NCBI RefSeq assembly: GCF_000148725.1
Contig: NZ_GL476301.1
Location: 56,193 to 120,192 of the forward strand
DNA from: Roseibium sp. TrichSKD4
GTDB taxonomy: Bacteria > Pseudomonadota > Alphaproteobacteria > Rhizobiales > Stappiaceae
Direction of reading: 5' to 3'
DNA: 64,000 nt
The notes below the pieces were generated by a model. It worked only from the letters and a program-made list of their open reading frames with translations, was not told where the DNA came from and did not search any database. Made by a program: the position numbers and the translations under genes. This document shows, in pieces, positions 42,836-61,226 of the stretch. Numbering within the stretch: the first letter of the stretch is position 1; each line of letters opens with the position of its first letter.

Positions 42836-44316
42836 GTTCGCGCTGAAAAACCCCTTAACTGATTGAAGAGTATGGATACCCATTGGGTTTTGGATGTGTG
42901 AATATGCCGGTTAGTTGATCCGAAGCACGCATTTTCTGGCATATTCTCATGAGACCTTCAAAACGCAACAAACGGTGTGGCGATCTGTTCAAGGAACGCC
43001 TGGCCGCAATCATCGATATGAACCATTCGTTGGTGCGGCTGTCTGGTCTGATGCCTTGGGATGAATTTGATGCGGAGTTCGGCAGGCATTATCGCCCCTT
43101 GGGACGACCGGCCAAACCAACGCGTCTGATGGCCGGGCTGCACTTTCTCAAGCACATGTACGATCTTTCCGATGAAGAGACGGTTGAGCGTTGGGTTGAA
43201 AACCCCTACTGGCAGTCTTTCTGCGGTTTTGAGTTTTTCCAGCACCAATTCCCCATTGATCCCTCAACCATGACCCGCTGGCGCAAACGGATTGGTCCTG
43301 AGGGAATGGAAAAGCTTCTTTCTGCTACGGTAGGTGTTGCGATTGAGAGCGGGACGATCAAGAAGAGCAGCCTTGAGCGGGTCTTGGTTGATACGACCGT
43401 TCAACCCAAAGCCATTGCCCATCCCACCGATAGCCGTCTTTATCACAAGGCCTTGCAGCTTCTGGTGCGCCAGGCCAAGAGGGCCGGCATCATCTTGCGT
43501 CGCAGCCATACCAGAGTTGCCAAAAAGGCGGCCTTGATGGCGGGCCGTTATGCCCATGCCAAACAGTTCAAGCGGATGCGCCGGGAACTCAAAAAGCTGA
43601 AGACCTATCTGGGCCGGGTCTATCGCGACATCTCCCGCAAGATCGCAGGCAACGAAGGTCTTGAGCACCGGTTCTCCCGTCTGCTGGGACTGGTGGAGCG
43701 GCTTCTGGCCCAGACCCCCAAGGACAAAAACAAGATTTATTCCATGCATGCGCCGGAAGTGGCCTGTATTGCCAAGGGCAAGGCGCGAACACCTTACGAG
43801 TTCGGGGCCAAGGTTGGCATTGCCACGACCAATCGGGAAGGATTGGTTCTTGCGGCGAGGGCTTTTGAGGGCAATCCCTATGATGGGCACACCTTGAATG
43901 ACACCATCAGTCAGGCTGAGAAAGTCTGCGGCACCAAAGCTGAGCGTGTCTATGTGGACCGTGGCTATCGGGGGCATGATTATGAGGGCGACGCCAAGGT
44001 CATGATCTCCGGCCAGAAGCGCGGGCTGACGGCACAGATGAAGCGTGAGCTGAAACGACGATCAGCGATCGAGGCCACCATCGGCCACATGAAAACAGAT
44101 GGACGACTTGACCGGAACTTCCTCAATGGCAAAAATGGCGATGCCATCAACGCCCTGCTGGCCGCAGCCGGTCATAACCTGCGTCTGATCCTCAATGCAC
44201 TGATCATTTTGCTGCTCTGGATCACAAACCCCATCCCCAAACCGGTCAAATCGAATATTTGCGTATTGCTTCGGCCACGCGCAACATCAATGGCTTAGAC
44301 GTTGTTCAGGGCGGAC
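42836..44316 (+). mobile_element. IS5-type insertion sequence, 1481 bp
   Basis: Bounded by imperfect inverted repeats: left end GTTCGCGCTGAAAAACCCC, right end (reverse strand) GTCCGCCCTGAACAACGTC, about 14 of the first 19 positions matching. It is flanked by TAGATA direct repeats and contains one transposase gene (42949-44298). Its position exactly inside an otherwise intact lrp reading frame shows a recent insertion. Confidence 0.9.
42949..44298 (+). CDS. IS5 family transposase
   Basis: 449 residues. N-terminal helical domain ('KPTRLMAGLHFLKHMYDLSD', 'WVENPYWQSFCGFEFFQHQF') and a DDE catalytic core: first Asp in 'RVLVDTTVQPKAIAHPTDSR', second in 'YVDRGYRGHDY', Glu in 'RRSAIEATIGHMKTDGRLDR' (YREK-like region). 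The frame is complete with no stops, so it is probably active. Product inserts and excises the flanking element by cut-and-paste. Confidence 0.93.
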   Translation: MRPSKRNKRCGDLFKERLAAIIDMNHSLVRLSGLMPWDEFDAEFGRHYRPLGRPAKPTRLMAGLHFLKHMYDLSDEETVERWVENPYWQSFCGFEFFQHQFPIDPSTMTRWRKRIGPEGMEKLLSATVGVAIESGTIKKSSLERVLVDTTVQPKAIAHPTDSRLYHKALQLLVRQAKRAGIILRRSHTRVAKKAALMAGRYAHAKQFKRMRRELKKLKTYLGRVYRDISRKIAGNEGLEHRFSRLLGLVERLLAQTPKDKNKIYSMHAPEVACIAKGKARTPYEFGAKVGIATTNREGLVLAARAFEGNPYDGHTLNDTISQAEKVCGTKAERVYVDRGYRGHDYEGDAKVMISGQKRGLTAQMKRELKRRSAIEATIGHMKTDGRLDRNFLNGKNGDAINALLAAAGHNLRLILNALIILLLWITNPIPKPVKSNICVLLRPRATSMA

Positions 44317-44774: not shown

Positions 44775-47150
44775 ATGACTGAAACCATTCACCACCTGAA
44801 GACCATTGAGCAACGGCTTTTGTGGCTGTCGCATTGGATGATTCATAACGCCAACCACATCCGCCCGAAGGTGGACGGGATCAAGATTGGCGGGCATCAA
44901 GCAAGTTCCGCTTCAATGGTGTCGATCATGACAGCGCTCTATTTTTCGGCGCTCCGGCCAGAAGACAGGGTTGCGGTGAAACCGCATGCGTCTCCGATCT
45001 TTCATGCCATGCAATATCTGATGGGCAACCTCAGCCGCGAGAAGATGGAAAACTTCCGCGGGTTCGGCGGTGTTCAATCCTATCCGTCGCGCACAAAGGA
45101 TGTCGATGACGTGGATTTTTCGACCGGTTCCGTTGGTCTCGGTGTAGCGATCACGTCCTTTGCCTCGATCATTCAGGATTACATTCACGCCAAGTCATGG
45201 GGCGATGACATTCCGACAGGGCGAATGGTTGCTCTTGTCGGGGACGCAGAGCTGGACGAGGGCAACGTCTATGAGGCGTTGCAGGAAGGCTGGAAGAACG
45301 ATCTGCGGAACTGCTGGTGGATCATCGACTATAACCGCCAATCTCTTGACGGGATCGTCCGCGAAGGTCTGTTTGATCGTGTCGAAAAGATCTTTGATGC
45401 CTTTGGCTGGGATGTAGTTCGGGTAAAACACGGTGTCCTGCAGCGTGCGGCCTTCAAGGAGCCGGGCGGGGATAAACTCCGTCAGTGGATCGATGCCTGT
45501 TCCAATCAGGATTACTCCGCCCTGACTTTCATGGGTGGTGCCGTTTGGCGTAAGCGACTGATGGATGATCTGGGCGATCAGGGTGATGTCACTGCGTTGT
45601 TGGATCGGCGCAGTGATGACGAACTGGCGGACCTCATGGAAAATCTTGGCGGCAATTGCACCGAGACCATGGCGGAAACCTTTGCTTCCATCGAGCATGA
45701 CCGTCCGACCTGTTTCCTCGCCTATACGGTCAAGGGATGGGGCACGCCGATCGCCGGACACAAGGATAATCACGGCGGGCTGATGAACAGCACCCAGATG
45801 GCCGAATGGCAAAAGCATATGGGCGTTGCGGAAGGCGCGGAGTGGGAGCCCTTCGCAACGGTTGAAAATGTTGTGGCGCTCAAAACGTTTGTGGATCAGG
45901 TGCCGTTTTTCTCAAAAGGCGCGCGCCGTTATCACGATGCTGCGGTCGATGTTCCGGCCATTGCGGCGCCGAAGGGAACTGAGCTGTCGACACAGATGGC
46001 TTTCGGCAAAATCCTCGATGACCTGTCCAAGGGCTCAAGCACTTTGGCTGAGCGGATCGTGACGAGCTCGCCGGATGTGACCGGGACGACTAATCTCGGG
46101 CCGTGGGTCAACCGGCGGAAGCTTTTCGCACGGACCGAGCAGTCTGATGCCTTCATCGAAAATCGAATTCCTTCGACGGCTAAATGGGAGTTCACACCGC
46201 AAGGCCAGCATATCGAGCTTGGCATTGCGGAAATGAACCTGTTCCTGTTGCTCGGGGCGGCAGGCCTATCTCATTCCCTGTTTGGCAAACGGCTTATTCC
46301 GATCGGGACGGTCTATGATCCCTTTGTCTGTCGTGGTCTCGATGCCTTGAATTATGCCTGCTATCAGGACGCCCGTTTCATGATTGTTGGCACGCCGTCC
46401 GGCGTGACGCTGTCCCCGGAAGGGGGCGCGCATCAGTCAATCGGAACGCCGTTGATCGGGATGAGTCAGGACGGTCTTGCTGCCTTTGAGCCTGCTTTTG
46501 CCGATGAGCTGGCTGTTATCATGGAATGGGCTTTCGACTACCTACAGCGCGACGGGGAGGGGGATCCTGATGAGCGAACCTGGCTGCGGGATGAAACTGG
46601 CGGTTCGGTCTATCTTCGGTTGACCACCAATCCGATCGAGCAGCCGGGCACGCGGGCCGATGACGATTTCCGCCGAGGGGCCATTGATGGAGCCTACTGG
46701 CTGCGCAAACCCGGTCCAAACTGCGATGTGGTGCTTGCCTATCAGGGCGCAGTTGCGCCTGAGGTCATTCGCGCGGCGGGCCTGCTTTCTGACAGTCGCC
46801 GAGATGTTGGCGTGTTGGCGGTAACCTCTGCAGACCGGCTGAACGCCGGCTGGACGGCGGCCCAGCGGGCACGTTCAAGAGGCAACAAAACTGCCCTGTC
46901 GCATATTGAGCGCCTGCTTGGCGATTTGCCGACGCATTGCCAGATGATTACTGTGATCGACGGGCATCCGGCAACGCTTTCATGGCTGGGTGGGGTATGT
47001 GGCCATCGCACTATTCCGCTGGGCGTGGAGCATTTCGGCCAGACAGGCACGATCGGTGACCTCTACAGTCACTTCGGCATCGATACAGCTTCCATTTTGG
47101 AGAAAGTCAACGGACTAACGCTTGGGCGAACTGTCGGCACGCCACTTTGA
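44775..47150 (+). CDS. AceE-like 2-oxoacid dehydrogenase E1 (MdeB-like alpha-ketobutyrate dehydrogenase?)
   Basis: 791 residues, single-chain thiamine-diphosphate E1 similar to AceE rather than to true transketolase. The ThDP motif GDAELDEG (156-163) ends in Asn187 of 'IIDYNRQS', and 'RIPSTAKWEFTPQGQHIELG' and 'GVTLSPEGGAHQSIGTPLIG' are AceE-type blocks. It is about 100 residues shorter than E. coli AceE. No E2 or E3 gene adjoins it. A known parallel is Pseudomonas mdeB, an AceE-like alpha-ketobutyrate dehydrogenase beside an Lrp-type mdeR; here too an Lrp gene (now disrupted) diverges 131 bp away, though no methionine gamma-lyase is seen. Substrate therefore tentative. Confidence 0.8.
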   Translation: MTETIHHLKTIEQRLLWLSHWMIHNANHIRPKVDGIKIGGHQASSASMVSIMTALYFSALRPEDRVAVKPHASPIFHAMQYLMGNLSREKMENFRGFGGVQSYPSRTKDVDDVDFSTGSVGLGVAITSFASIIQDYIHAKSWGDDIPTGRMVALVGDAELDEGNVYEALQEGWKNDLRNCWWIIDYNRQSLDGIVREGLFDRVEKIFDAFGWDVVRVKHGVLQRAAFKEPGGDKLRQWIDACSNQDYSALTFMGGAVWRKRLMDDLGDQGDVTALLDRRSDDELADLMENLGGNCTETMAETFASIEHDRPTCFLAYTVKGWGTPIAGHKDNHGGLMNSTQMAEWQKHMGVAEGAEWEPFATVENVVALKTFVDQVPFFSKGARRYHDAAVDVPAIAAPKGTELSTQMAFGKILDDLSKGSSTLAERIVTSSPDVTGTTNLGPWVNRRKLFARTEQSDAFIENRIPSTAKWEFTPQGQHIELGIAEMNLFLLLGAAGLSHSLFGKRLIPIGTVYDPFVCRGLDALNYACYQDARFMIVGTPSGVTLSPEGGAHQSIGTPLIGMSQDGLAAFEPAFADELAVIMEWAFDYLQRDGEGDPDERTWLRDETGGSVYLRLTTNPIEQPGTRADDDFRRGAIDGAYWLRKPGPNCDVVLAYQGAVAPEVIRAAGLLSDSRRDVGVLAVTSADRLNAGWTAAQRARSRGNKTALSHIERLLGDLPTHCQMITVIDGHPATLSWLGGVCGHRTIPLGVEHFGQTGTIGDLYSHFGIDTASILEKVNGLTLGRTVGTPL

Positions 47151-48651: not shown

Positions 48652-50301
48652 ATGCAGCGTCTAACTGGTTTGGTGAAGTTGAATTATTTTGCGCTCGTAA
48701 TATTGCTAATGGCAAACATTCTGACGGGTGTGGCAAACGCGTCTGAGGACCAGTGTTCTATTACTCTGCCGTCTAGCCTTGTACTGAAAGACAGCAGTTT
48801 TACTCCGGTCAATATGTCGTTTACGCCGGTTCTCCGATTAGGTCGCGAATATCTTGGGACACTTTTGCGTTATGATGCTGATGCGAATTTGGTCCCATCA
48901 TTGGCGAAGTCGTGGGCAATCGCCCCTGACAACCGGTCGATAACGTTTCAGCTTGATCGCACATGTCACTGGTCGGATGGCGCTCCGATTACAGCCAATC
49001 AGTTTAAGGCAGGATTTGAAACCCTTTTCGACCCAAGCACCTCATTCACAGCAAATGGTGGCTTTGCTCCGCTGTCGGAACTCATAAAAGGCGCGAATGC
49101 GGTCCGAAACAAGCAGGTAAGCCCGAAAATGATTGGTTTAAGGGCTTTGGATGAAGCGACGTTTGTGGTGGAGACGGAAGGGCCCGCTGACCTTTTCCTT
49201 CAAGCCCTGACTTCTCACAATTACACCCCTTTGCCGACACACTGGATCAATGCAGGGAAAATGAAATGGTCTGCTCCGGAGATCTGGCAAGTCGCAAGCG
49301 GGCCTTATGTTGTCCAAAAAGTTGACCCCAAGATGGTGGTCATGGGACGAAATCCTCACTTTTGTAAAGGTCAGGAAAAGCCACTCAAAGCTGTTCGCTA
49401 TCTTCTTGATAGCCCGCGTCAGGCAACAATTGGAATGTTTCTGAACGGCGCAATCGATGGTGTGGACCGTTTCTCTCAGCGGATAGTGGCTCCGCTTTTG
49501 AAAAATGTTGATCAAATCCGCAAGTTCAAATTCACGGCCCCCGGAGGGTCACCGGATCGGGTTTATACCTATCTCTTTGTGAATTAGACTGTTCCTGAGC
49601 TGCAAGACCCTCGCATAAAGCAGGCAATTTCTCTTCTGATCGAGTATCAGTTTCTAGCCAGCGGTCCGATCATGGGAACCGAAACCCACATTCTCGATGG
49701 CTTTCTGTTGCCTGTTGAGGGGTATCGCAGTCCGGCACTCGAGTATCGTGCGACTTCCTATTCTGAGCGCGTGAAGAAAGCGCGAGTGCTGATGGAAGAA
49801 GCCGGATATAGCGAGAATAATCGACTGCAGTTAGATCTCCCATTACGTGAAAATCATGAGTTTTTCTCTTTGGGTCAGGCAATCGCCGGGATGCTCTCAA
49901 AGGGGCATTTCGATGTGCAGGCTCGCTTGGCCGGGGATGGGGAGGAGTACTACCGAAATCTGGATACACGCAACTTTGGAGTTGGGCTCTTCCTTTGGGG
50001 GACCATTTTACCCGACCCATCCATCGTGCTCAGAGGGGTGATTGATAAACGCATTACGTCACAGGATGTGCATGATGGTTATCACGACCTCTACAATCAA
50101 TCTTTGCAGCAAGACACGCGAGACGATCGCTTTGCTCGCCTTTTAGAGCTTGAAAAGAAGCTTCAGGCAAACGGGCACATCATTCCGCTAACAGCTGTAA
50201 CACGCACCTTCATTCTGGGAGAGGAGTACAAACTTACTGGTGGAGTGTTCCTTCAGGCTGCCAATCTTGAACCTGCAGATACAAAGGCGTGTGCTCCTTA
50301 A
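48652..50301 (+). pseudogene. Periplasmic binding protein family 5 with in-frame amber codon
   Basis: A single reading frame of about 550 codons encodes a family 5 solute-binding protein: signal peptide (first about 30 residues, '...ANILTGVANASEDQ'), 'GREYLGTLLRYDADANLVPS', 'CHWSDGAPITANQFKAGF', and after the stop 'PELQDPRIKQAISLLIEYQF', the family VRQAL-like helix. The frame is broken only by TAG at 49585-49587, within 'YLFVN*TVPELQDPR'; no frameshift is involved. No permease or ATPase gene adjoins it. The GGDEF-EAL gene starts 2 bp after its stop. It may be dead, or a very recent mutation or sequencing error. Confidence 0.85.
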
Positions 50302-52325: not shown

Positions 52326-53567
52326 ATGTCATCGGCAAAAGTCGTCGTTGTTGGGGCCGGGATTGTCGGTGTATCTGCAGCTATCTGGTTAAGGCGCTCA
52401 GGGTTTGAGGTTACCTTGCTCGACAGAGGAGCTCCCGGAGAAGGAGCTTCTTATGGCAATGGCTGCATTCTGGCGAGTTGTTCAATCATTCCGGTCACTG
52501 GGCTGGGTCTTATACCCAATGCTCCAAAATACCTTCTTGATCCGGATTTTCCGCTTTTTTTGCGGTGGTCTTATCTGCCAAAGTTGATGCCCTGGCTTAC
52601 TCGGTATTTGGCCCATGCCAATGCCGAAGATACGGCGCGTATCTCAAAAGGGTTGGTTCCAATTGTTGGTGACAGTCTGGAGCAACATCAGGCGCTGTCA
52701 CGGGGGACCAGAGCAGAAAAATGGGTGCGCCCCAGCAAATACAGCTTCGTTTACAAAGACCGCGCTGCTTTTGAAAAAGACAGTTTTGCTTGGGATTTGC
52801 GCCGCGAGGCGGGTTTTAGTCCAGAGATCATTGAAGGACATGCTGTTCAAGATGCAGAGCCTATTCTGGCAAAGGACATGCAGTTCTTGGCGCGCCTCGA
52901 CAATCATGGGTTCATCTTGAACCCCGGTGATTATGTCAAATCGCTTGTCACAGTTTTGGAAGACGAAGGTGGTGCCTTTGTTCAAGCTTTAGTGAAGGAC
53001 TTTGATTTATCCGGCGGAGAGATTACCGCTGTCGAGACAGATCAGGGACGGTTTGAGTGCGCACGCGCGGTTCTGGCGGCGGGTGTCTGGTCTAAACAGT
53101 TGACTGACAAGCTTGGCCTCAACATTCCTCTCGAAGCAGAACGCGGCTATCACATTATCTTCAAATCGCCGAGTGAAACTCCGAACAATCCAATGATGCT
53201 GACAGCGGGCAAGTTCGTTGCAACTGCAATGGATCAAGGGCTTCGCTGTGCGGGTGTTGTGGAATTTGGAGGCTTGAGTGAGAAAAAGTCTCCTGCACCT
53301 TTGGCGCTGTTGCGCAAGAAGGTGAAATCGGTCTTTCCTAGTCTCGAAGCGGACAGTGAGGAGGAATGGCTCGGGTTTCGGCCTGCGCCAACGGACAGCT
53401 TGCCGCTGATTGGAGAGATTGGTTCATCCGGCGTCTACACCGCATTTGGCCACCATCATATTGGCCTGACAGGAGGGCCGAAGAGCGGACGCATGGTTGC
53501 TGATTTGATCGCAGATAGGCCGTCCAATCATGACATGAGTGTTTATGAACCCAAGCGGTTCATGTGA
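52326..53567 (+). CDS. dadA: D-amino-acid dehydrogenase-like FAD oxidoreductase (DadA family)
   Basis: 413 residues. N-terminal FAD Rossmann motif 'VVVGAGIVGVSAAIWLRRSG', then 'EGASYGNGCILASC' and the C-terminal FAD motif 'TAFGHHHIGLTGGPKSGRMV'. DadA-type enzymes oxidise D-amino acids to 2-oxo acids, feeding electrons to the membrane chain. It starts the unit dadA - TRAP P-Q-M - racemase, suggesting import and oxidation of a D-amino acid or a related amino compound. Other DAO-family amine oxidations cannot be excluded. Confidence 0.87.
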   Translation: MSSAKVVVVGAGIVGVSAAIWLRRSGFEVTLLDRGAPGEGASYGNGCILASCSIIPVTGLGLIPNAPKYLLDPDFPLFLRWSYLPKLMPWLTRYLAHANAEDTARISKGLVPIVGDSLEQHQALSRGTRAEKWVRPSKYSFVYKDRAAFEKDSFAWDLRREAGFSPEIIEGHAVQDAEPILAKDMQFLARLDNHGFILNPGDYVKSLVTVLEDEGGAFVQALVKDFDLSGGEITAVETDQGRFECARAVLAAGVWSKQLTDKLGLNIPLEAERGYHIIFKSPSETPNNPMMLTAGKFVATAMDQGLRCAGVVEFGGLSEKKSPAPLALLRKKVKSVFPSLEADSEEEWLGFRPAPTDSLPLIGEIGSSGVYTAFGHHHIGLTGGPKSGRMVADLIADRPSNHDMSVYEPKRFM

Positions 53568-53610
53568 GGAGCGTGACGCTCCAAAGAAACAAAAAGTGGA
53601 GGAACTGAGT

Positions 53611-54588
53611 ATGAAAACTGTCTACGCAAAACTGGGATTGGCTTTGGCCTGCACCGCTATGTTGTCGGGCGCTGCAATGGCTGAAAAATGGGATATGCCA
53701 ATGGCATACTCGGCCACCAATTTCCATTCGGAAATGGGTGTGGTTTTTGCTGACAAGGTGCGTGAGTACACAAACGGAGATATTGATATCACCGTTCACC
53801 CGGGTGGTTCTCTGTTCAAGGGTGGTGAGATCAAGCGCGCGATCCAAACCGGTCAGGCCCCCATTGGCGAACGCTTTATGTCCGCGCACGCAAATGAAGC
53901 GCCGCTGCTTGGGTGGGATAATCTACCCTTTGTTGCCACGTCGTATGAAGCGAATGAAAAGCTCTGGCAAGCCGCCAAGGGTAAGGTCAATGACCAGCTG
54001 GCGGGCCTCAACCTCGTTACGCTTTATACTTGCCCATGGCCGGGGCAGGGTTTTTATTTCAACAAGCCGGTTGCGTCGTCCAAGGACACACAAGGCGTCA
54101 AGTTCCGCTCCTACAACACGGCAACAGCAACCTTTGCTGAAGCGCTGGGCATGATCCCGGTTCAAGTGGAAGCTGCCGAGTTGAGTCAGGCTTTGGCAAC
54201 CGGTGTCGCGGAATCCTTCATCTCCTCAGGTTCCACTGGTTACGACCGGAAGGTCTGGGAGCACCTGACGCATTATTACAAGGTCAATGCGTGGCTGCCG
54301 CGCAACTATGTGATGGTGAACAAAGGGGTTTGGGAAGGCCTCGATGCTGGCACCCAAGCTGCGATCCAAAAGGCCGCGGACGAGACAGGCTCTGCTTGCG
54401 CCAAAAAGTCGGAAGAACTTGCCAACTGGTACTTCGAGCAACTCGCGTCTAACGGCATGAGTGTTGAAGACGCGTCCGATGAGTTCCGCGGTGAGCTGGA
54501 AACCATCGGAGCGAAGATGACTGCTGACTGGCTGGAAGACACCGGCGCAGACGGTCAGGCCATTCTGGATGCATATAAGGCCAACTAG
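53611..54588 (+). CDS. dctP: TRAP transporter periplasmic binding protein (DctP family)
   Basis: 325 residues from the ATG at 53611 (AGTGGAGGAACTGAGT upstream). Signal peptide MKTVYAKLGLALACTAMLSG. DctP blocks: 'ADKVREYTNGDIDITVHPGG', 'GVKFRSYNTATATFAEALGM' with the ligand Arg, and 'VAESFISSGSTGYDRKVWEH'. Located 43 bp after dadA; a terminator-like hairpin lies between it and dctQ. Confidence 0.92.
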   Translation: MKTVYAKLGLALACTAMLSGAAMAEKWDMPMAYSATNFHSEMGVVFADKVREYTNGDIDITVHPGGSLFKGGEIKRAIQTGQAPIGERFMSAHANEAPLLGWDNLPFVATSYEANEKLWQAAKGKVNDQLAGLNLVTLYTCPWPGQGFYFNKPVASSKDTQGVKFRSYNTATATFAEALGMIPVQVEAAELSQALATGVAESFISSGSTGYDRKVWEHLTHYYKVNAWLPRNYVMVNKGVWEGLDAGTQAAIQKAADETGSACAKKSEELANWYFEQLASNGMSVEDASDEFRGELETIGAKMTADWLEDTGADGQAILDAYKAN

Positions 54589-54603
54589 TCTTCCCTGACC
54601 ACT

Positions 54604-54632
54604 GACCCCGTCGATCTTCGACGGGGTCTTTT
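54604..54632 (+). terminator. Intra-operon terminator between dctP and dctQ
   Basis: Perfect 11-bp stem GACCCCGTCGA (54604-54614) with TCGACGGGGTC (54618-54628) over TCT, followed by TTTT. It lies 15 bp after dctP and 28 bp before dctQ. Probably partial, setting binding protein above membrane subunits; the same position holds a hairpin in the first TRAP operon. Confidence 0.8.
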
Positions 54633-54659
54633 GACTTTCAAAAACTGGATGTGTGATTG

Positions 54660-55373
54660 ATGAGAGACTGGCAACCGTTTCTTGGGCTGCCACTTTGGGT
54701 TTGGCTCTTTGTATTTCCAGCGGCGCTCGCCGTTTTTTGCCTTGTAAATCCGCAATTGGCCGGGAAGCTGTTGCGCCCCGTTTGGCGGGTACTTGACCGT
54801 GTCTATGTTGGTGCGGGAGTGATCGCTGCGGGCTTCATGGTCATGATCCTGCTCTTGATCGTGGGTCAGATGATCGCGCGTTGGTCGGCACTGACATTCC
54901 CCGGATCAACCGAGTATGCAGGCTATGCCATGGCGGCAACGTCCTTCTTCGCGCTTGCCTACACATTGACCCGTGGCGGGCATATTCGTGTGTCCATTTT
55001 CCTCAATCTCAATGCGCATACGCGGCTTTGGCTTGATGCCGTCGCCATGTTGCTGGCGGCCTGGATTGCCACCTATTTCGCCCGTTATGCAATCAAGACC
55101 AACATCCTTTCAGAGATGTTGAATGATCGTACGCAGGGACAAGATTATGTGCCGGAATGGCTGTTGACGTTCTTTACCATGTTTGCGAACTCGCCCGCCA
55201 AATGGGGAGAGATGTGGGCAAAGACCGGCAGTGAATGGGTCTTTACGCCGGTTTGGGTGCCTCAGCTTCCCATGTCGATTGGCACCGTGCTTCTGGCCAT
55301 CGCCATTTGGGATTATCTTTATCGGCTGCTTGTTGATCGCAAGAGCCACATTGGCGGCGAGGTTGTGGAATGA
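54660..55373 (+). CDS. dctQ: TRAP transporter small membrane subunit (DctQ family), long form
   Basis: 237 residues from the ATG at 54660, longer than typical DctQ (about 160-180). An extra N-terminal hydrophobic helix ('LPLWVWLFVFPAALAVFCLV') precedes the DctQ core ('FPGSTEYAGYAMAATSFFAL', 'GGHIRVSIFL'). A loop of about 40 residues before the last helix adds length ('NSPAKWGEMWAKTGSEWV'). Its stop overlaps the dctM start by 4 bp. Confidence 0.88.
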   Translation: MRDWQPFLGLPLWVWLFVFPAALAVFCLVNPQLAGKLLRPVWRVLDRVYVGAGVIAAGFMVMILLLIVGQMIARWSALTFPGSTEYAGYAMAATSFFALAYTLTRGGHIRVSIFLNLNAHTRLWLDAVAMLLAAWIATYFARYAIKTNILSEMLNDRTQGQDYVPEWLLTFFTMFANSPAKWGEMWAKTGSEWVFTPVWVPQLPMSIGTVLLAIAIWDYLYRLLVDRKSHIGGEVVE

Positions 55374-56683
55374 CCGAGATTTACGCAACACTCGTTTTTG
55401 TCTTTGTGCTGTTCGCTCTTTTGGGCGGATCGGTCTGGATTGGTCTGGCGCTGATGGGTGTCGCATGGGTGGGGATGGAGCTGTTCACCAGCCGTCCGGC
55501 AGGTGATGCCATGATTACCACCATCTGGACGGGGGCATCCAGCTGGACGCTCACAGCGCTGCCGCTGTTCATCTGGATGGGTGAGATCCTGTACCGAACG
55601 CGATTATCTGAAGACATGTTTCGAGGTCTGGCGCCGTGGATGCGATTCCTTCCTGGAGGGCTGCTTCATACAAATATCGCTGGCTGTACAATATTCGCGG
55701 CTGTTTCAGGGTCTTCAGCTGCGACCTTGAACATGGTGGGCAAGATGTCGATTCCGGAACTGCGATCGCGCGGATATCCGGAATTCATGATTATTGGAAC
55801 GCTGGCGGGGGCTGCAACCCTCGGACTGATGATCCCGCCGTCGCTGACCCTGATTGTTTATGGTGTGACGGTGAATGAATCGATCACCAAACTGTTCATG
55901 GCTGGAATCTTTCCGGGGCTCGTCTTGTCCGGCTTGTTCATGACCTACATCATCGCTTGGCATTTCTTCGGTAAAGGTCAGAAGCCTGACCCTGAGCCGT
56001 CCATGTCCTTTGGAACCATGCTCAAGGAAAGTCGGTTTCTGGCGCCTGTGCTGGGGCTCGTGTTTGTCGTGATCGGGTCCATGTATATGGGCTACGCCAC
56101 TGCAACAGAAGCTGCAGCCGTCGGGGTCATCGGGGCGCTGTGTTTGTCCGTCTTCCAAGGGTCTCTCAACTGGAAAACCTTCAGTGAGAGCCTCATGGGT
56201 GCAACGCGCACATCGGCCATGATTGCGTTGATCTTGATGGGGGCTGCCTTCCTCTCCTTGTCCATGGGGTTCACCGGTTTGCCGCGGGCTTTGGCGGAGC
56301 TGATTGAAGGGTTCAATTTGTCCCCAATCGCTCTGATCGCCGTTTTGACCGTGTTTTACCTGATCCTTGGCATGTTCATGGATGGACTGTCTTCGGTTGT
56401 TCTCACGATGGCGATTGTCGAGCCTATGATCCGTGCCGCCGGCATTGATGTGATCTGGTTCGGTATCTTCCTGGTTGTTGTCATTGAAACAGCGCAGGTG
56501 ACACCACCGATCGGGTTCAACCTGTTCGTTTTGCAAGGCATGACGCGGCACGAGATTTCCTACATCGCCAAGACAGCCATTCCGATGGTTGGGTTGATGC
56601 TGTTGATGGTGGTGATCCTTGTGATTTGGCCAGAACTCGCAACCTGGCTTCCGGAGAACATCCGCACAGGACCCGGAGGTTAG
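55370..56683 (+). CDS. dctM: TRAP transporter large membrane subunit (DctM family)
   Basis: 437 residues, about 12 hydrophobic segments, with 'VSGSSAATLNMVGKMSIPEL', 'ATLGLMIPPSLTLIVYGVTV', 'ATATEAAAVGVIGAL' and 'QVTPPIGFNLFVLQGMT', all DctM hallmarks. Solute channel partner of DctQ; overlap with dctQ. The racemase-family gene follows 16 bp later. Confidence 0.93.
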   Translation: MTEIYATLVFVFVLFALLGGSVWIGLALMGVAWVGMELFTSRPAGDAMITTIWTGASSWTLTALPLFIWMGEILYRTRLSEDMFRGLAPWMRFLPGGLLHTNIAGCTIFAAVSGSSAATLNMVGKMSIPELRSRGYPEFMIIGTLAGAATLGLMIPPSLTLIVYGVTVNESITKLFMAGIFPGLVLSGLFMTYIIAWHFFGKGQKPDPEPSMSFGTMLKESRFLAPVLGLVFVVIGSMYMGYATATEAAAVGVIGALCLSVFQGSLNWKTFSESLMGATRTSAMIALILMGAAFLSLSMGFTGLPRALAELIEGFNLSPIALIAVLTVFYLILGMFMDGLSSVVLTMAIVEPMIRAAGIDVIWFGIFLVVVIETAQVTPPIGFNLFVLQGMTRHEISYIAKTAIPMVGLMLLMVVILVIWPELATWLPENIRTGPGG

Positions 56684-56699
56684 GCCGGGTGAGGCTTGA

Positions 56700-57398
56700 A
56701 TGAGAGCTTCCTCAAACCGAGCTGATAAAGCGAAGCTGGGTATCCTGATGCTGGATACCCAGTTTCCGCGCATTCTGGGGGATGTTGGGAACCCAGATAC
56801 TTGGCCGTTTCCGGTCACCTACAAGATCGTTCACGGGGCAAGTCCTGATCGTGCGATCAAACAAGATCCGCGCAAGCTTATTGAGCCCTTTATTGAAGCG
56901 GGACAGGAACTCGTTGAGGCCGGGTGCAAGGGGATTGCAACCACCTGCGGGTTCTTGACCCTTTTGCAGGATGATCTTGCCCGTGCACTGGCCGTTCCGG
57001 TTGCCACATCTGCGCTTCAACAAATCCTGATGATCCAGGCGATACTGCCGCCTGACAAGCGGGTCGGTGTTATCACCATCTCAAAAGCGTCTCTGACACC
57101 TGCCCACTTTCAAGCGGTTGGGGTGGCCGCTCCGGAGGCAGTCCCGGTTGTTGGAACTGAAGGGGGGCGAGAATTCAGCGCTGCCATTCTGGAAAACCGC
57201 GACACACTTGATGTTGATGCGTCTCGACTGGACCTGCTGGATGCGGCCAGTAAGCTGGTCACCCGGTATCCTGATGTTGGGGCAATCTTACTGGAATGTA
57301 CCAACATGCCCCCCTATGCGAACGACATTCGAAACGCCACAGGATTGCCCGTTTATTCCATCTACACGCATCTTTGCTGGTTTCACGCGGGATTATAA
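56700..57398 (+). CDS. Asp/Glu/hydantoin racemase family protein
   Basis: 232 residues. The two-cysteine racemase architecture is visible: Cys in 'GCKGIATTCGFLTLLQDDL' and Cys in 'AILLECTNMPPYA'. The family includes aspartate, glutamate and hydantoin racemases, maleate isomerase and arylmalonate decarboxylase. In an operon with dadA and a TRAP importer, racemisation of an amino acid before or after D-amino-acid oxidation is the simplest reading. The conserved 'ECTN' block is more typical of racemases than of maleate isomerase. No close subfamily recognised. Confidence 0.78.
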   Translation: MRASSNRADKAKLGILMLDTQFPRILGDVGNPDTWPFPVTYKIVHGASPDRAIKQDPRKLIEPFIEAGQELVEAGCKGIATTCGFLTLLQDDLARALAVPVATSALQQILMIQAILPPDKRVGVITISKASLTPAHFQAVGVAAPEAVPVVGTEGGREFSAAILENRDTLDVDASRLDLLDAASKLVTRYPDVGAILLECTNMPPYANDIRNATGLPVYSIYTHLCWFHAGL

Positions 57399-57427: not shown

Positions 57428-57460
57428 ACACAGGTAATTATCAATGGTAATTACCTGTGT
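57428..57460. promoter_or_regulatory. MarR operator candidate upstream of the dehalogenase operon
   Basis: Perfect 13-bp arms ACACAGGTAATTA (57428-57440) and TAATTACCTGTGT (57448-57460) around TCAATGG. It lies 21 bp before the marR start (57482) and has no T-run. Long AT-centred dyads of this kind suit dimeric MarR proteins; likely autoregulation and control of marR-rdhA. Confidence 0.75.
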
Positions 57461-57481: not shown

Positions 57482-57931
57482 ATGAGCGAAAGTTACACAC
57501 TCCATAATCGGATCGGTTTCAAGGTGACGCGGTTGGCGCGGATTATGGAAACGCGGTTGGAAAAGCAACTCGCGGTTCATGACATTACTCGGTTGCAGTG
57601 GTGTGTCTTGCGCGGTGTTGGCCTTGAGAATGTGTCCTCTCCCTCGAAACTGGCAGACTATATTTGCGTGGCGCGCCCCGTTGTATCGCGCCTGTTGAAG
57701 TCCATGGAGGAGCAGGGGCTTATCAAGCGGGTCGATATCGATGACGACAAACGGTTTACCGACATCGCGCTTACGGAGCTTGGGAGCGAAAAACTACGGA
57801 TTTGCCACGCTCTTGTGCAGGAGCTGAACCAGCATTTTTCAGGCAAGTTGGATGGCGAAACTTATGATCGGCTCATGGCTGCCATTGATCAGCTGACGGA
57901 GGGCGAAGACGTTCGGCTGACGAGATTGTAA
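57482..57931 (+). CDS. MarR family regulator of the reductive dehalogenase
   Basis: 149 residues with a MarR winged helix: 'VSSPSKLADYICVARPVVSRLLKSM' and the wing 'RVDIDDDKRFTDIALTELG'. It lies 85 bp upstream of the dehalogenase gene on the same strand, preceded by a perfect inverted repeat. MarR proteins commonly release DNA on binding phenolic ligands, which fits a gene for dehalogenating aromatic substrates. Ligand identity is inference. Confidence 0.88.
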   Translation: MSESYTLHNRIGFKVTRLARIMETRLEKQLAVHDITRLQWCVLRGVGLENVSSPSKLADYICVARPVVSRLLKSMEEQGLIKRVDIDDDKRFTDIALTELGSEKLRICHALVQELNQHFSGKLDGETYDRLMAAIDQLTEGEDVRLTRL

Positions 57932-58016
57932 TGCAGATTGAATGGCGTCATTTGCTTGGTGCTGCCAATAAGAACCAAGAGCAGCCCACCCAAGGCGCTG
58001 CCGGGGGAGGAAATTT

Positions 58017-61000
58017 GTGAGGCTTTTTTCGGACCGACACCGACCCGTGCATCTTGGTCCGTTTCCATTAGAGCGACTTGCGAGACGTGATGTCGGCACA
58101 GAGTTGCCAGACGTTCCGGCCTTCACTCCCTTGACTTTTTCCCGGCCCGACAAGCCGGAGAGCATCCTCAACGCCATGACAGAAGCGCAGGCGATGCTGG
58201 ATGCAGTTCGCGACGGCATCGTCAATGGCAACAGAGCGGAGATTCCGGGCTGTCTTAACGAGCGGCAAAATCATTTGAAGGCGTTCGGATTTTTTCAAGA
58301 TGCCTCGATGATGGCGACCTGTGATGTCCCTGCCTCTGCCCTTCTGCGCAGTTCAGTCCGAAACCCGGACCTTGAACGTCTCGCCGATAAACTGCGCACC
58401 GAACAATGCAAATCCCTGGCCTCGGGGATTGATGCGATTATGGCTGATCTTCGAGATGCCGTGAACGCACCGCCCAAAACGGTCTCTCATCATCAACATG
58501 CGCTTGTCGTCATGATGCAAACGCCGCGCCCGGTGCGAGCTGACGAACCGGGATTTGAATGGCTCAACGGGGCGGAAGTCCATCGGTCGGCACTTCGCGC
58601 TATGGAAGTGGCAGTTGTTCTTGCTCAGTACATCCGCCTTCTTGGCTATGAAGCTTGTGCGCATAGCGCCTCGACATCCGATGTTGATCTCAATGTTCTG
58701 GCGGTGAAATCGGGTCTGGCAACAGTGGAGCAGGGTAAGGTCTCAAATCCATATCTTGGGACACGGTTTGCCCTAGCTGTTGTCACAACGGATTTGCCCA
58801 TTGCGCATGACTTGCCGCTTAAGCAGATGGCGGAACAGCCAAAGAGCAGAACCCATGGCATTACCTGGAAGTTGGGATATCAGACTGCGAAGAGCGCAGG
58901 AAACCTCGATCCATATGCCAATCGAAGATACGTTGATGGCGCATATCCGTTTGAAACGCTCAAAAGGGTTGAAACGCCAACGACCTATATTGATGAAGAC
59001 CGGGTTCCGAGGGTGCCAAAGCGTACGGACATGTTTGCGCGCGCCTTGTTCGGTGATCTTGGCAAGAAGGTGCAAACGGCTTCCACCGGAGGGCAATATG
59101 TCCGAAAGTCGGCGCCGTCGATGGCTCAACGTCGGGCGCTTGGGGCCTTTGTCCTGCTTCAGGACGGAGAGCCACGTCCCGATAAGCAAGAAAGTGATGC
59201 CCAGACCAATGCGGCCAATCTCAAGGCCACCTCCTATTTTCTCGGTGCAGATGCAGTAGGTCTGTCCCGGTGTCCGGATTGGACCTGGTATTCTCATGAT
59301 GCAGGTGGGGTGCCGATAGACCCGCCGCATGATCAAGCGCTCTCAATGGTGATTGACCAGGGATATGAGACCACAGAGGGTACATCTGGGGATGATTGGA
59401 TAGCCGTTTCCCAGTCAATGCGGGCGTATCTGCGTTTTTCCATTCTTGGCAGTATTGTTGCCCAGCAAATCCGCAATCTTGGATACGAGGCTAAAGCGCA
59501 CACCGTGATCGACGGTGAGGTGTTGCAGCCGCCGTTGCTGCTCCTGTCCGGTTTGGGGGAAGTGAGCCGGATTGGAGAGGTCATTCTCAATCCGTTTTTG
59601 GGGCCGCGGCTCAAATCCGGTGCTGTAACAACCACTATACCGATTGCGCATGACAAGCCGATTTCCTTTGGCCTGCAAAGCTTCTGTGAGGCTTGCAACA
59701 AATGCGCGCGCGAATGTCCGTCTGGCGCGATCACTGCCGGGCCGAAAATGATGTTTAACGGCTATGAGATCTGGAAATCAGATAGCCAGAAGTGCACCAC
59801 CTATCGGATCACCAATATGGGTGGGGCGATGTGTGGTCGTTGCATGAAAACCTGCCCTTGGAACCTTGAAGGAATATTTGCAGAAGCGCCGTTTCGATGG
59901 GCTGCAATGAATATACCCAAGGCGGCACCGGTGCTCGCCAAGCTGGATGACATGGTCGGCAATGGCGAGCAGAACCTCGTCAAGAAGTGGTGGTGGGATC
60001 TGGAGCTCTCAGAAGATGGTGCCTATCGTCCCACAAAGCACCCCGTTAATGAGCGTCCGCTGCAAAAAGATCTGAACCTGAAATATGAAGACCAGACGCT
60101 TGCCGTTTATCCAGCCAATCTGGCGCCACACCCTTGGCCATTTCCTTTCCCGATGGACCGTGAAAAGGGCATTGAGGCTTATCAGGCCTTGGTCACCGCC
60201 CGGGAATATAAGGCTAGAATTGCGCGAAACGAAATGGAAGGCCTGTTTCACACCTACAAGATTGATGGGGATGCGCCGGTTATCGCGGTGGAGATCTCCA
60301 AGGCTGAGCCCATGGTTGACGGCGTAACCAAGTATGAGTTTTCTGCCATTGATGGCGCATCTCTGCCCGAATGGACTGCCGGGGCGCATATCGACATTGT
60401 CGTCGCGCCTGAGTTTTTGCGCCAATATTCATTGTCTGGAAATCCGGCGGAACGTGGATCTTATCAGATCGGGGTCTTGCGTGAGGATAAAGGGCGAGGT
60501 GGCTCGCAGCTTTTGCATCGGATTTTCAGCAAGGGTCGCAGGATCTTCATCTCCAAACCCATCAATCATTTTCCGCTGGTCGAAAATGCCCGGCGCAGTT
60601 TCCTGATGGGTGGCGGTATTGGTATCACCCCGATGATAGCGATGGCGCATCGGCTTCATGCCATCGGGGCTGAGTTTGAGATGCACTACTCCTGCAGCAT
60701 GCGCGCAAGGGCCGGTTTTCTGGAGGACCTTGAAACTATGCCATGGGCTGAGCGGGTACATCTTCATTTCAGTGATGAAGGAAGCCGCGCTGATCTGGAT
60801 CATATCCTCGGGGGCTATCACCCCGGCGATCATGTTTATTGCTGCGGTCCCGTACCGTACATGGATACGGTGATGGCCGCTGCGGAGAGCAATGGTTTTT
60901 CTGAAGACGAGCGCCATGTTGAATATTTCAACGTGCCGGATATGCCCGACTATGAGAACCACCCCTTCATCTTGAAACTCGCTAAAAGTGGGCTGGAGTT

Positions 61001-61226
61001 AGAGGTGCCTACCTCAGAAACAGCAACCGACGTTCTTGCGGCGAATGGTATCCAGATCAATGTCAAATGCGCAGACGGGATTTGCGGGGTTTGTAAATGC
61101 GGGCTTGTCTCTGGCGACGTCGAGCATCGCGATTTTGTTTTGTCAAAAAAACAACGCGAAACAGCCGTAATCCTATGCCAGTCGCGAGCAGCGGAGAAGA
61201 ACGGTGTTATTGAGGTCGATCTTTAA
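58017..61226 (+). CDS. rdhA: Self-sufficient reductive dehalogenase fused to flavin/[2Fe-2S] reductase (BhbA/NpRdhA-like)
   Basis: 1069 residues from the GTG at 58017 (GGGGGAGG upstream). Order of parts: a degenerate N-terminal copy of the corrinoid domain (about 150-290); the active corrinoid domain (about 395-550) with 'WYSHD' Tyr425, 'YEAKAH' Lys493 and 'GPRLKSG' Arg531; [4Fe-4S] ligands C557-C560-C563-C567P and C593...C606-C609-C613P; a PDR-type reductase domain with 'RQYSLSG' (802-808), 'GGGIGITPM' (865-873) and 'YCCGPVPYM'; and a C-terminal [2Fe-2S] ferredoxin C1018-C1023-C1026...C1054. No Tat signal and no rdhB anchor are present, so it is cytosolic and catabolic, not respiratory. The class removes halogen from aromatic rings using cobalamin and NAD(P)H. 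Confidence 0.93.
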   Translation: MRLFSDRHRPVHLGPFPLERLARRDVGTELPDVPAFTPLTFSRPDKPESILNAMTEAQAMLDAVRDGIVNGNRAEIPGCLNERQNHLKAFGFFQDASMMATCDVPASALLRSSVRNPDLERLADKLRTEQCKSLASGIDAIMADLRDAVNAPPKTVSHHQHALVVMMQTPRPVRADEPGFEWLNGAEVHRSALRAMEVAVVLAQYIRLLGYEACAHSASTSDVDLNVLAVKSGLATVEQGKVSNPYLGTRFALAVVTTDLPIAHDLPLKQMAEQPKSRTHGITWKLGYQTAKSAGNLDPYANRRYVDGAYPFETLKRVETPTTYIDEDRVPRVPKRTDMFARALFGDLGKKVQTASTGGQYVRKSAPSMAQRRALGAFVLLQDGEPRPDKQESDAQTNAANLKATSYFLGADAVGLSRCPDWTWYSHDAGGVPIDPPHDQALSMVIDQGYETTEGTSGDDWIAVSQSMRAYLRFSILGSIVAQQIRNLGYEAKAHTVIDGEVLQPPLLLLSGLGEVSRIGEVILNPFLGPRLKSGAVTTTIPIAHDKPISFGLQSFCEACNKCARECPSGAITAGPKMMFNGYEIWKSDSQKCTTYRITNMGGAMCGRCMKTCPWNLEGIFAEAPFRWAAMNIPKAAPVLAKLDDMVGNGEQNLVKKWWWDLELSEDGAYRPTKHPVNERPLQKDLNLKYEDQTLAVYPANLAPHPWPFPFPMDREKGIEAYQALVTAREYKARIARNEMEGLFHTYKIDGDAPVIAVEISKAEPMVDGVTKYEFSAIDGASLPEWTAGAHIDIVVAPEFLRQYSLSGNPAERGSYQIGVLREDKGRGGSQLLHRIFSKGRRIFISKPINHFPLVENARRSFLMGGGIGITPMIAMAHRLHAIGAEFEMHYSCSMRARAGFLEDLETMPWAERVHLHFSDEGSRADLDHILGGYHPGDHVYCCGPVPYMDTVMAAAESNGFSEDERHVEYFNVPDMPDYENHPFILKLAKSGLELEVPTSETATDVLAANGIQINVKCADGICGVCKCGLVSGDVEHRDFVLSKKQRETAVILCQSRAAEKNGVIEVDL

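Follow-up and report, generated by a model that had tools for sequence, protein, structure and literature searches.

A predicted self-sufficient reductive dehalogenase of Roseibium, its putative MarR operator and a TRAP importer linked to it in relatives

In a 64,000-nucleotide stretch of the genome of Roseibium sp. TrichSKD4 (contig NZ_GL476301.1, positions 56,193 to 120,192; the whole stretch is called the window), we analysed rdhA, a gene at 58017..61226 on the forward strand whose 1069-residue product, RdhA, is very probably a B12 enzyme that uses NAD(P)H to remove bromine or iodine from phenol-like compounds. RdhA belongs to the already published BhbA/JtRdhA subfamily of self-sufficient catabolic reductive dehalogenases, with BhbA as the first described member (PMC10463259); the class, in which JtRdhA has been characterised, is not new. 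Our analysis adds context: a Roseibium-like chromosomal home, a marR gene with an operator-like sequence, and a tripartite ATP-independent periplasmic (TRAP) importer that is linked to rdhA in relatives and absent beside the rdhA of the window. Judged from sequence, we consider it highly likely that the whole is best explained by a dehalogenation cycle acting on a carboxylated ortho-halophenol under repression by MarR.

The gene is one open frame with a GTG start, six bases 5' of which lies a ribosome-binding-site-like GGGGGAGG (58003..58010, +), and in a search against solved structures the first residues of the protein paired with residue 1 of solved NpRdhA of Nitratireductor pacificus. In this search NpRdhA (PDB 4ras) matched residues 1-104 and 158-736 (E 1e-149), phthalate dioxygenase reductase (2pia) matched residues 757-1062 (E 3.8e-52), the reductase parts of self-sufficient P450s (6laa, 6kbh) were also found (with 2pia, E 3.8e-52 to 2.1e-54), and the respiratory enzyme PceA (4uqu, 8q4h) matched at E 5.3e-30 and 1.5e-17. 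A 34-sequence profile searched against solved sequences returned the three NpRdhA sequences at the top, followed by reductases and PceA. The NCBIfam reductive dehalogenase model TIGR02486 scored 190.7 bits against a cut-off of 160.35, with residues 440-648 as its best stretch. Although the Pfam RdhA family PF13486 gave no match at E 0.001, the NCBIfam and PDB matches settle the identity of the protein as a reductive dehalogenase. A prior sequence-only reading of the window had described a single 1069-residue protein joining a corrinoid core, two [4Fe-4S] motifs, an NAD(P)H reductase and a [2Fe-2S] ferredoxin, and each of these parts was recovered by TIGR02486, 4ras, 2pia and the Fer4 and Fer2 models. 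The stretch at residues 395-620 that it took as the core is part of an NpRdhA-like region of about residues 1-736.

Within this region, judged by sequence alignment with NpRdhA (residues 1-104 and 158-736), the N-terminal half contains a second, vestigial copy of the corrinoid domain. For residue-level comparison, the window protein and 95 relatives (96 RdhA-reductase fusions) were aligned with NpRdhA, starting from 100 sequences, the window's included, from which the repeat rows L091, L093, L102 and L104 were dropped before aligning (L numbers denote related loci and G numbers genomes, G001 being the genome of L005). Every one of the 96 fusions has an insert of 52-53 residues, residues 105-157 in RdhA (58329..58487, +), that NpRdhA lacks, its sequence having 12 residues at this position, 11 of them untyped X; a fusion-specific insert has been described in JtRdhA (PMC10463259). 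The corrinoid/[4Fe-4S] core at residues 440-648 (59334..59960, +) carries S467, M468, Y471, K533 and R597, together with two [4Fe-4S] motifs at residues 557-613 (59685..59855, +; C557, C560, C563, C567 and C593, C606, C609, C613), and Fer4_7 and Fer4_16 matched residues 557-616 above cut-off. It is followed by two domains of the phthalate-dioxygenase-reductase type, one for flavin (flavin mononucleotide, FMN, judged by homology) and one for NAD(P)H, at residues 757-971 (60285..60929, +), with the motifs RQYS at 802-805, GGIGIT at 866-871 and C943-G944, and by a plant-type [2Fe-2S] domain at residues 989-1058 (60981..61190, +; C1018, C1023, C1026, C1054), where Fer2 also matched above cut-off (E 3.8e-9). 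No twin-arginine translocation (Tat) signal was seen by inspection and hydropathy, with no dedicated predictor: a single RR occurs at residues 23-24, and the highest 19-residue Kyte-Doolittle mean anywhere in RdhA is 1.28, in agreement with the earlier claim that the protein lacks an export signal. No RdhB-like gene was among the flanking genes named in general domain scans, no search aimed at RdhB having been made.

The residues expected of an ortho-halophenol active site are all in place. F291, S422, M423, Y426, K488 and R552 of NpRdhA, which are given as common to NpRdhA and JtRdhA (PMC10463259) and whose roles are known from crystal complexes (PMC7565698), correspond to F340, S467, M468, Y471, K533 and R597 of RdhA, each kept in 96/96 fusions. 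Equally invariant are the eight [4Fe-4S] cysteines, the four [2Fe-2S] cysteines, the flavin-site residues R802, Q803 and S805 and, at the nucleotide site, G866, G867, G869 and T871, whereas 95 of the fusions have I868. Of 12 positions compared in the NpRdhA pocket, the six that belong to the catalytic or polar site are thus identical, and six wall positions (F290, K307, F310, P311, A419, N452) differ in RdhA, the mapping of K307 to S356 adjoining an alignment gap and not being relied on. The wall type M339/Y361/V464/V497, with V or A at 362, is shared by 90 of the 96 fusions including RdhA, where NpRdhA has F290/F310/A419/N452; BhbA and the protein of Nitratireductor OM-1 have F/S/S/A, and four further sequences show single or double changes. 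Since V464 occupies the position of NpRdhA A419, and since an A419M change moved the relative preference of NpRdhA towards a mono-bromo substrate (PMC7565698), the walls may matter for the choice between mono- and dihalogenated substrates.

From homology with the NpRdhA crystal complexes (PMC7565698) and from JtRdhA enzymology (PMC10463259), we infer the following cycle. The FMN of the reductase domain would accept a hydride from NAD(P)H, and the [2Fe-2S] cluster and both [4Fe-4S] clusters would then relay electrons one by one to base-off cobalamin. In the bound ortho-bromo or ortho-iodo phenol, the halogen would rest on cobalt while S467, K533 and R597 hold the hydroxyl; upon cleavage of the carbon-halogen bond, Y471, together with K533, would supply a proton and the halide would depart. 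Oxygen tolerance of RdhA is suggested by analogy with JtRdhA. In nature RdhA probably acts on an ortho-halophenol that bears a carboxylate, such as a bromo-4-hydroxybenzoate or a bromo-4-hydroxyphenylacetate, whose dehalogenation would free the aromatic acid for use as carbon.

A gene for a 149-residue MarR-family regulator (57482..57931, +; PF01047 E 9.1e-10, above cut-off) ends 85 bases 5' of rdhA and is its same-strand neighbour in the closest clade. The same-strand marR-rdhA pair recurs in Roseibium and Maritalea relatives, where the MarR proteins are 66-77% identical (63% in L007 and 38% in L083); L068 and L085 have a distant MarR gene on the opposite strand. Upstream of marR lies a predicted MarR operator (57428..57460), a perfect 13-bp inverted repeat with the core TAATTA-N7-TAATTA at 57435-57453. 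With three mismatches allowed, the 64 kb contain the full repeat, ACACAGGTAATTA-N7-TAATTACCTGTGT, once, and 100 shuffled sequences do not contain it; the same holds for the core. We surveyed the 150 bases 5' of marR in 19 chosen loci, leaving out repeat records, L068 and L085. Of the 17 loci with a close MarR, the window included, 13 carry the exact core, 15 carry it with at most one mismatch and all 17 with at most two; elsewhere in the 19 loci, none of 234,781 positions came as close as one mismatch, and two positions in L007 differ from the core by no more than two. Since the pattern itself was derived from the sequences counted, these figures describe conservation and are not an independent test. 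In Dehalococcoides, control of the MarR type has been reported for respiratory rdh genes (Rdh2R; PMC7755780). The portions of the RdhA literature consulted mention neither this operator nor the importer, no literature search having been aimed at the operator by name. MarR probably represses marR-rdhA through this palindrome until a halophenol-like ligand binds.

Full-length copies of rdhA are present in 34 of 87 genomes of the family of G001 and in 19 of 45 genomes of its genus. In relatives, the marR promoter region faces a divergent TRAP transporter, and the RdhA-linked TRAP binding proteins form a single family, whose compared members are 36-87% identical to one another. Clustering of open reading frames (ORFs) placed this family beside RdhA in 10 of 85 fetched loci; the member of L005 was missed by ORF calling and found in a later search of the genus genomes, and L046, L071 and L079, where a longer reverse ORF masked RdhA, are in the alignment and outside the neighbour table. 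Fourteen of the 19 genus carriers have an RdhA at 74-81% identity, and in 13 of these 14 the linked binding protein (74-100% identical) stands divergently within 0.7 kb of rdhA; marR is present in all 12 fetched (G030 and G040 were outside this check). A second layout is found in L006, L023, L056 and L067, where a DctM match stops 27-51 bases 5' of RdhA on the same strand. Because the two layouts share one partner family, these observations argue for a functional link between TRAP and RdhA. TRAP systems carry organic anions, which, given the linked importer, points to a carboxylated halophenol as the substrate. The nearest solved TRAP binding proteins are 5im2, 5i5p/5i7i, 5iga/5izz and 4p56, some of them reportedly solved with benzoate-like acids.

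JtRdhA catalyses the NADPH-dependent debromination and deiodination of ortho-halophenols (PMC10463259). Its two fastest substrates, 3,5-dibromo-4-hydroxybenzoate and 3-bromo-4-hydroxyphenylacetate, are carboxylated halophenols, and iodophenols without a carboxylate are also good substrates (PMC10463259). A PobA-like gene adjoins RdhA in some loci: directly 3' of rdhA in L024, L028, L042 and L058, and nearby on the opposite strand, annotated pobA, in L082. The L024 protein scored 636 bits against a cut-off of 539 with the 4-hydroxybenzoate 3-monooxygenase model.

Several observations weigh against our explanation. The rdhA of the window has no linked TRAP, and the TRAP binding proteins encoded in the 64 kb share no more than 23-31% identity with that family. 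No linked TRAP stands beside rdhA in G030 or in the five genus carriers of a more distant RdhA, among which 37-40% TRAP matches lie elsewhere in G009, G047 and G048 and none was found at E 1e-60 in G014 and G035. The operator was absent from the 150 bases searched before the distant MarR genes of L007 and L083. PobA is beside RdhA in only 5 of 85 loci, 10 of the 85 having less than 1.3 kb of downstream sequence, and no aromatic-ring gene was recognised among the flanking window genes scanned. The pocket walls differ from NpRdhA at six positions, four of which are unlike BhbA too, so that substrate preference is not transferable from either enzyme.

The foremost alternative, which is unlikely but deserves serious consideration, is that RdhA detoxifies natural halophenols of the plain bromophenol or iodophenol type and that the TRAP link in relatives is incidental. 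The lack of a linked TRAP and of a recognised ring-degrading gene beside the rdhA of the window would suit it, as would the activity of JtRdhA on 2-iodophenol and 2,4,6-triiodophenol, at 72% and 66% of its best rate (PMC10463259). However, the binding protein adjoins RdhA in nearly all close-RdhA genomes of the genus and in two layouts, and JtRdhA converted 2,6-dibromophenol at 6.8% of the rate reached with its best carboxylated bromophenols, a difference of about 15 times, the comparison being made at one concentration (PMC10463259).

Directly 5' of marR-rdhA in the window lies a cassette at 52326-57398 (+) that comprises a D-amino acid oxidase (DAO)-family oxidase, TRAP genes DctP-DctQ-DctM and an Asp/Glu-racemase-like protein. 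The racemase-like protein scored above the NF005679 cut-off, and the oxidase came closest to models of D-amino acid dehydrogenase without reaching their cut-offs. The cassette was rejected as a conserved partner of rdhA: with a criterion of E 1e-10 over half its length, the oxidase was matched in 2 of 85 loci only (L007 and L030), and the DAO-DctP-DctQ-DctM set was found in one locus of the 85, L030, where it is upstream of RdhA and separated from it by 5-oxoprolinase-like genes. We therefore treat it as a chance neighbour. A more speculative proposal, which we regard as improbable, is that in marine alphaproteobacteria rdhA is the core of a resident MarR-controlled regulon with its own importer for the salvage of halo-aromatic acids, and that in the window organism the cassette replaces the usual TRAP, bromo- or iodotyrosine from marine invertebrates and algae being dehalogenated before deamination by the neighbouring oxidase. 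If this were true, bacteria would have in RdhA a B12-dependent equivalent of the iodotyrosine deiodinase of animals.

Other neighbours were likewise not accepted as parts of the system. Downstream genes for an FAH (fumarylacetoacetate hydrolase) family hydrolase, a GntR and an AraC regulator were set aside, the FAH protein scoring best with a sugar-pathway model, below cut-off. Nor were the 5-oxoprolinase-like genes that adjoin RdhA in certain loci of the Roseobacter group accepted as functional partners. Two gene families, whose L020 members resemble the 5-oxoprolinase subunits PxpC and PxpA, lie upstream of RdhA in 11 loci (L010, L011, L013, L015, L016, L020, L026, L029, L030, L041 and L043).

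By tblastn at E 1e-3 against genome contigs, 543 stretches were confirmed as relatives, not all of them necessarily full-length fusions; the 80 of these that were kept match the query over its whole or almost its whole length at 66-81% identity and come, by title, mostly from Alphaproteobacteria of marine-type genera, L031, L063 and L068 being labelled Granulosicoccaceae. Of 1050 matching plasmid records, eight cover at least 80% of the RdhA query, among them pBHB with BhbA. A tree made by a quick method, with Shimodaira-Hasegawa-like approximate likelihood ratio test (SH-aLRT) support only, groups RdhA with Roseibium sediminicola (L005), L090 (G024) and L092 (G028) at SH-aLRT 100; its root joins long branches (NpRdhA with BhbA/OM-1) and is not relied on. 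CobN was found in the genomes of all four relatives tested, G024 included, and judged by this marker these relatives probably make cobalamin. In three genomes, the reductase/[2Fe-2S] end is present once more as a partial copy, some 2-3 kb away from the gene for full-length RdhA (G043:C1:82303-82926, 70% identical; G025:C26:147195-147500, 56%; G010:C2:313501-313779, 53%).

The gene also has a recurrent chromosomal setting. A gene resembling pyruvate dehydrogenase E1 (PDH-E1), the same as in the window, is no more than 50 kb away from rdhA in 10 of the 19 carriers in the genus; nine of these keep the order and orientation of the window, and G048 has another order. In the remaining nine, the two genes are far apart on one contig (G028, G030) or on different contigs (G001, G002, G009, G035), or the PDH-E1-like gene has no match (G014, G039, G047). 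G024, the closest genome found to the window, keeps the acyltransferase gene, the PDH-E1-like gene and rdhA on one contig in window order, with DNA identities of 77% for the acyltransferase gene, 92% for the PDH-E1-like gene and 73% for marR-rdhA. The G+C content of rdhA (0.541) equals that of the window (0.540). We read rdhA as a resident chromosomal gene and not as a recent catabolic acquisition. The sequence-only reading had proposed an aromatic pollutant or a natural halophenol as substrate; because the same chromosomal neighbour is kept in 10 of 19 carriers, the natural halophenols are favoured and the pollutant becomes less likely. It is accordingly quite improbable that rdhA was recently acquired for degrading pollutants such as bromoxynil or tetrabromobisphenol A (TBBPA), after the example of BhbA, which is carried by a plasmid typed as conjugative in a contaminated-soil isolate: the shared neighbour, the gene order of G024 and the matching G+C all speak against it.

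Further features of this region were observed. The PDH-E1/transketolase-like protein (44775-47150, +; 791 aa) scored 174 bits against an AceE cut-off of 860, and its gene, at 92% DNA identity to G024 against 73% for marR-rdhA, is unusually conserved. An IS5-family transposase gene (42949-44298, +) lies between inositol genes and the PDH-E1-like gene; G024 is without this insertion, and the flanking sequences are contiguous there. A gene resembling that of an oligopeptide-binding protein (48652-50301, +) is present as two adjacent ORFs, 48652-49587 and 49672-50301, the second of which is unnamed, and may be broken or carry a sequencing error.

Comparison with known systems places RdhA next to BhbA and JtRdhA. 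BhbA (L081, WP_015585978), from plasmid pBHB of Comamonas sp. 7D-2, is a full-length fusion with 50.7% identity and all six active-site residues identical to those of RdhA; unlike rdhA, its gene is on a plasmid with protocatechuate 4,5-dioxygenase genes nearby, and its walls differ as described. JtRdhA of Jhaorihella thermophila (WP_104007082), compared through the text of PMC10463259, resembles RdhA in domain order, absence of a Tat signal, duplicated corrinoid domain, fusion-specific insert and key active-site residues; a regulator and an importer are not mentioned in the portions of that account consulted. NpRdhA (4ras, 6zxu) shares 41.8% identity over 673 positions and the six active-site residues but lacks the fused reductase and the insert. 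The sequence-only reading had grouped RdhA with both BhbA and NpRdhA; the likeness to BhbA stands, whereas NpRdhA, having no fused reductase, is not self-sufficient (PMC10463259). A stand-alone catabolic enzyme of the NpRdhA type is excluded by the reductase fused to RdhA, and a respiratory RdhA was rejected on account of the same fusion, no Tat signal having been seen. Respiratory RdhA proteins such as PceA, which share a homologous core with RdhA, are exported, membrane-associated with RdhB and without a reductase fusion. The flavin-NAD(P)H-[2Fe-2S] unit is common to RdhA, phthalate dioxygenase reductase and the reductase parts of self-sufficient P450s, which feed an oxygenase or haem and not a corrinoid. 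The sequence-only reading had named two findings that would count against it, a failure to match the RdhA profile and a closer affinity to QueG epoxyqueuosine reductases; neither was obtained. It is extremely improbable that RdhA resembles QueG, or some other class III cobalamin enzyme, in having a role other than dehalogenation, and QueG identity was rejected: although the superfamily is the same and the QueG model TIGR00276 matches weakly, its 24.9 bits are far below the cut-off of 200 while the reductive dehalogenase model is above its own, no chain named QueG or epoxyqueuosine reductase was among 17 and 54 solved sequences within E 0.001, and the six halophenol-site residues are identical to those of NpRdhA.

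L020 of Roseobacter sp. MED193 was considered as the debrominase Ros_A3X954 and rejected, since the published motif at 283-294, CDICTKCADACP, does not fit the 1068 residues of L020; it is counted as uncharacterised, and no activity is taken from PMC13101508. By its motif positions, that paper concerns a different, oxygen-sensitive MED193 enzyme. MED193 (G091) has a second, shorter RdhA-like frame at C1:1217188-1218024 (537 aa, 31% identical to residues 387-661), which may be the enzyme characterised as Ros_A3X954. The MED193 enzyme of PMC13101508 has no direct bearing on the RdhA of the window, but it shows that oxygen tolerance is not to be taken for granted in an RdhA of the cytosolic type.

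A single protein that carries out reductive dehalogenation aerobically and with NADPH is of use in bioremediation and in the study of corrinoid chemistry. The spread of rdhA among Roseibium-like genomes, partly in one chromosomal place, together with marR, the operator-like sequence and the linked TRAP, gives a handle on the natural substrate. Should our reading hold, the dehalogenation of natural organobromines would be among the activities of common marine heterotrophs.

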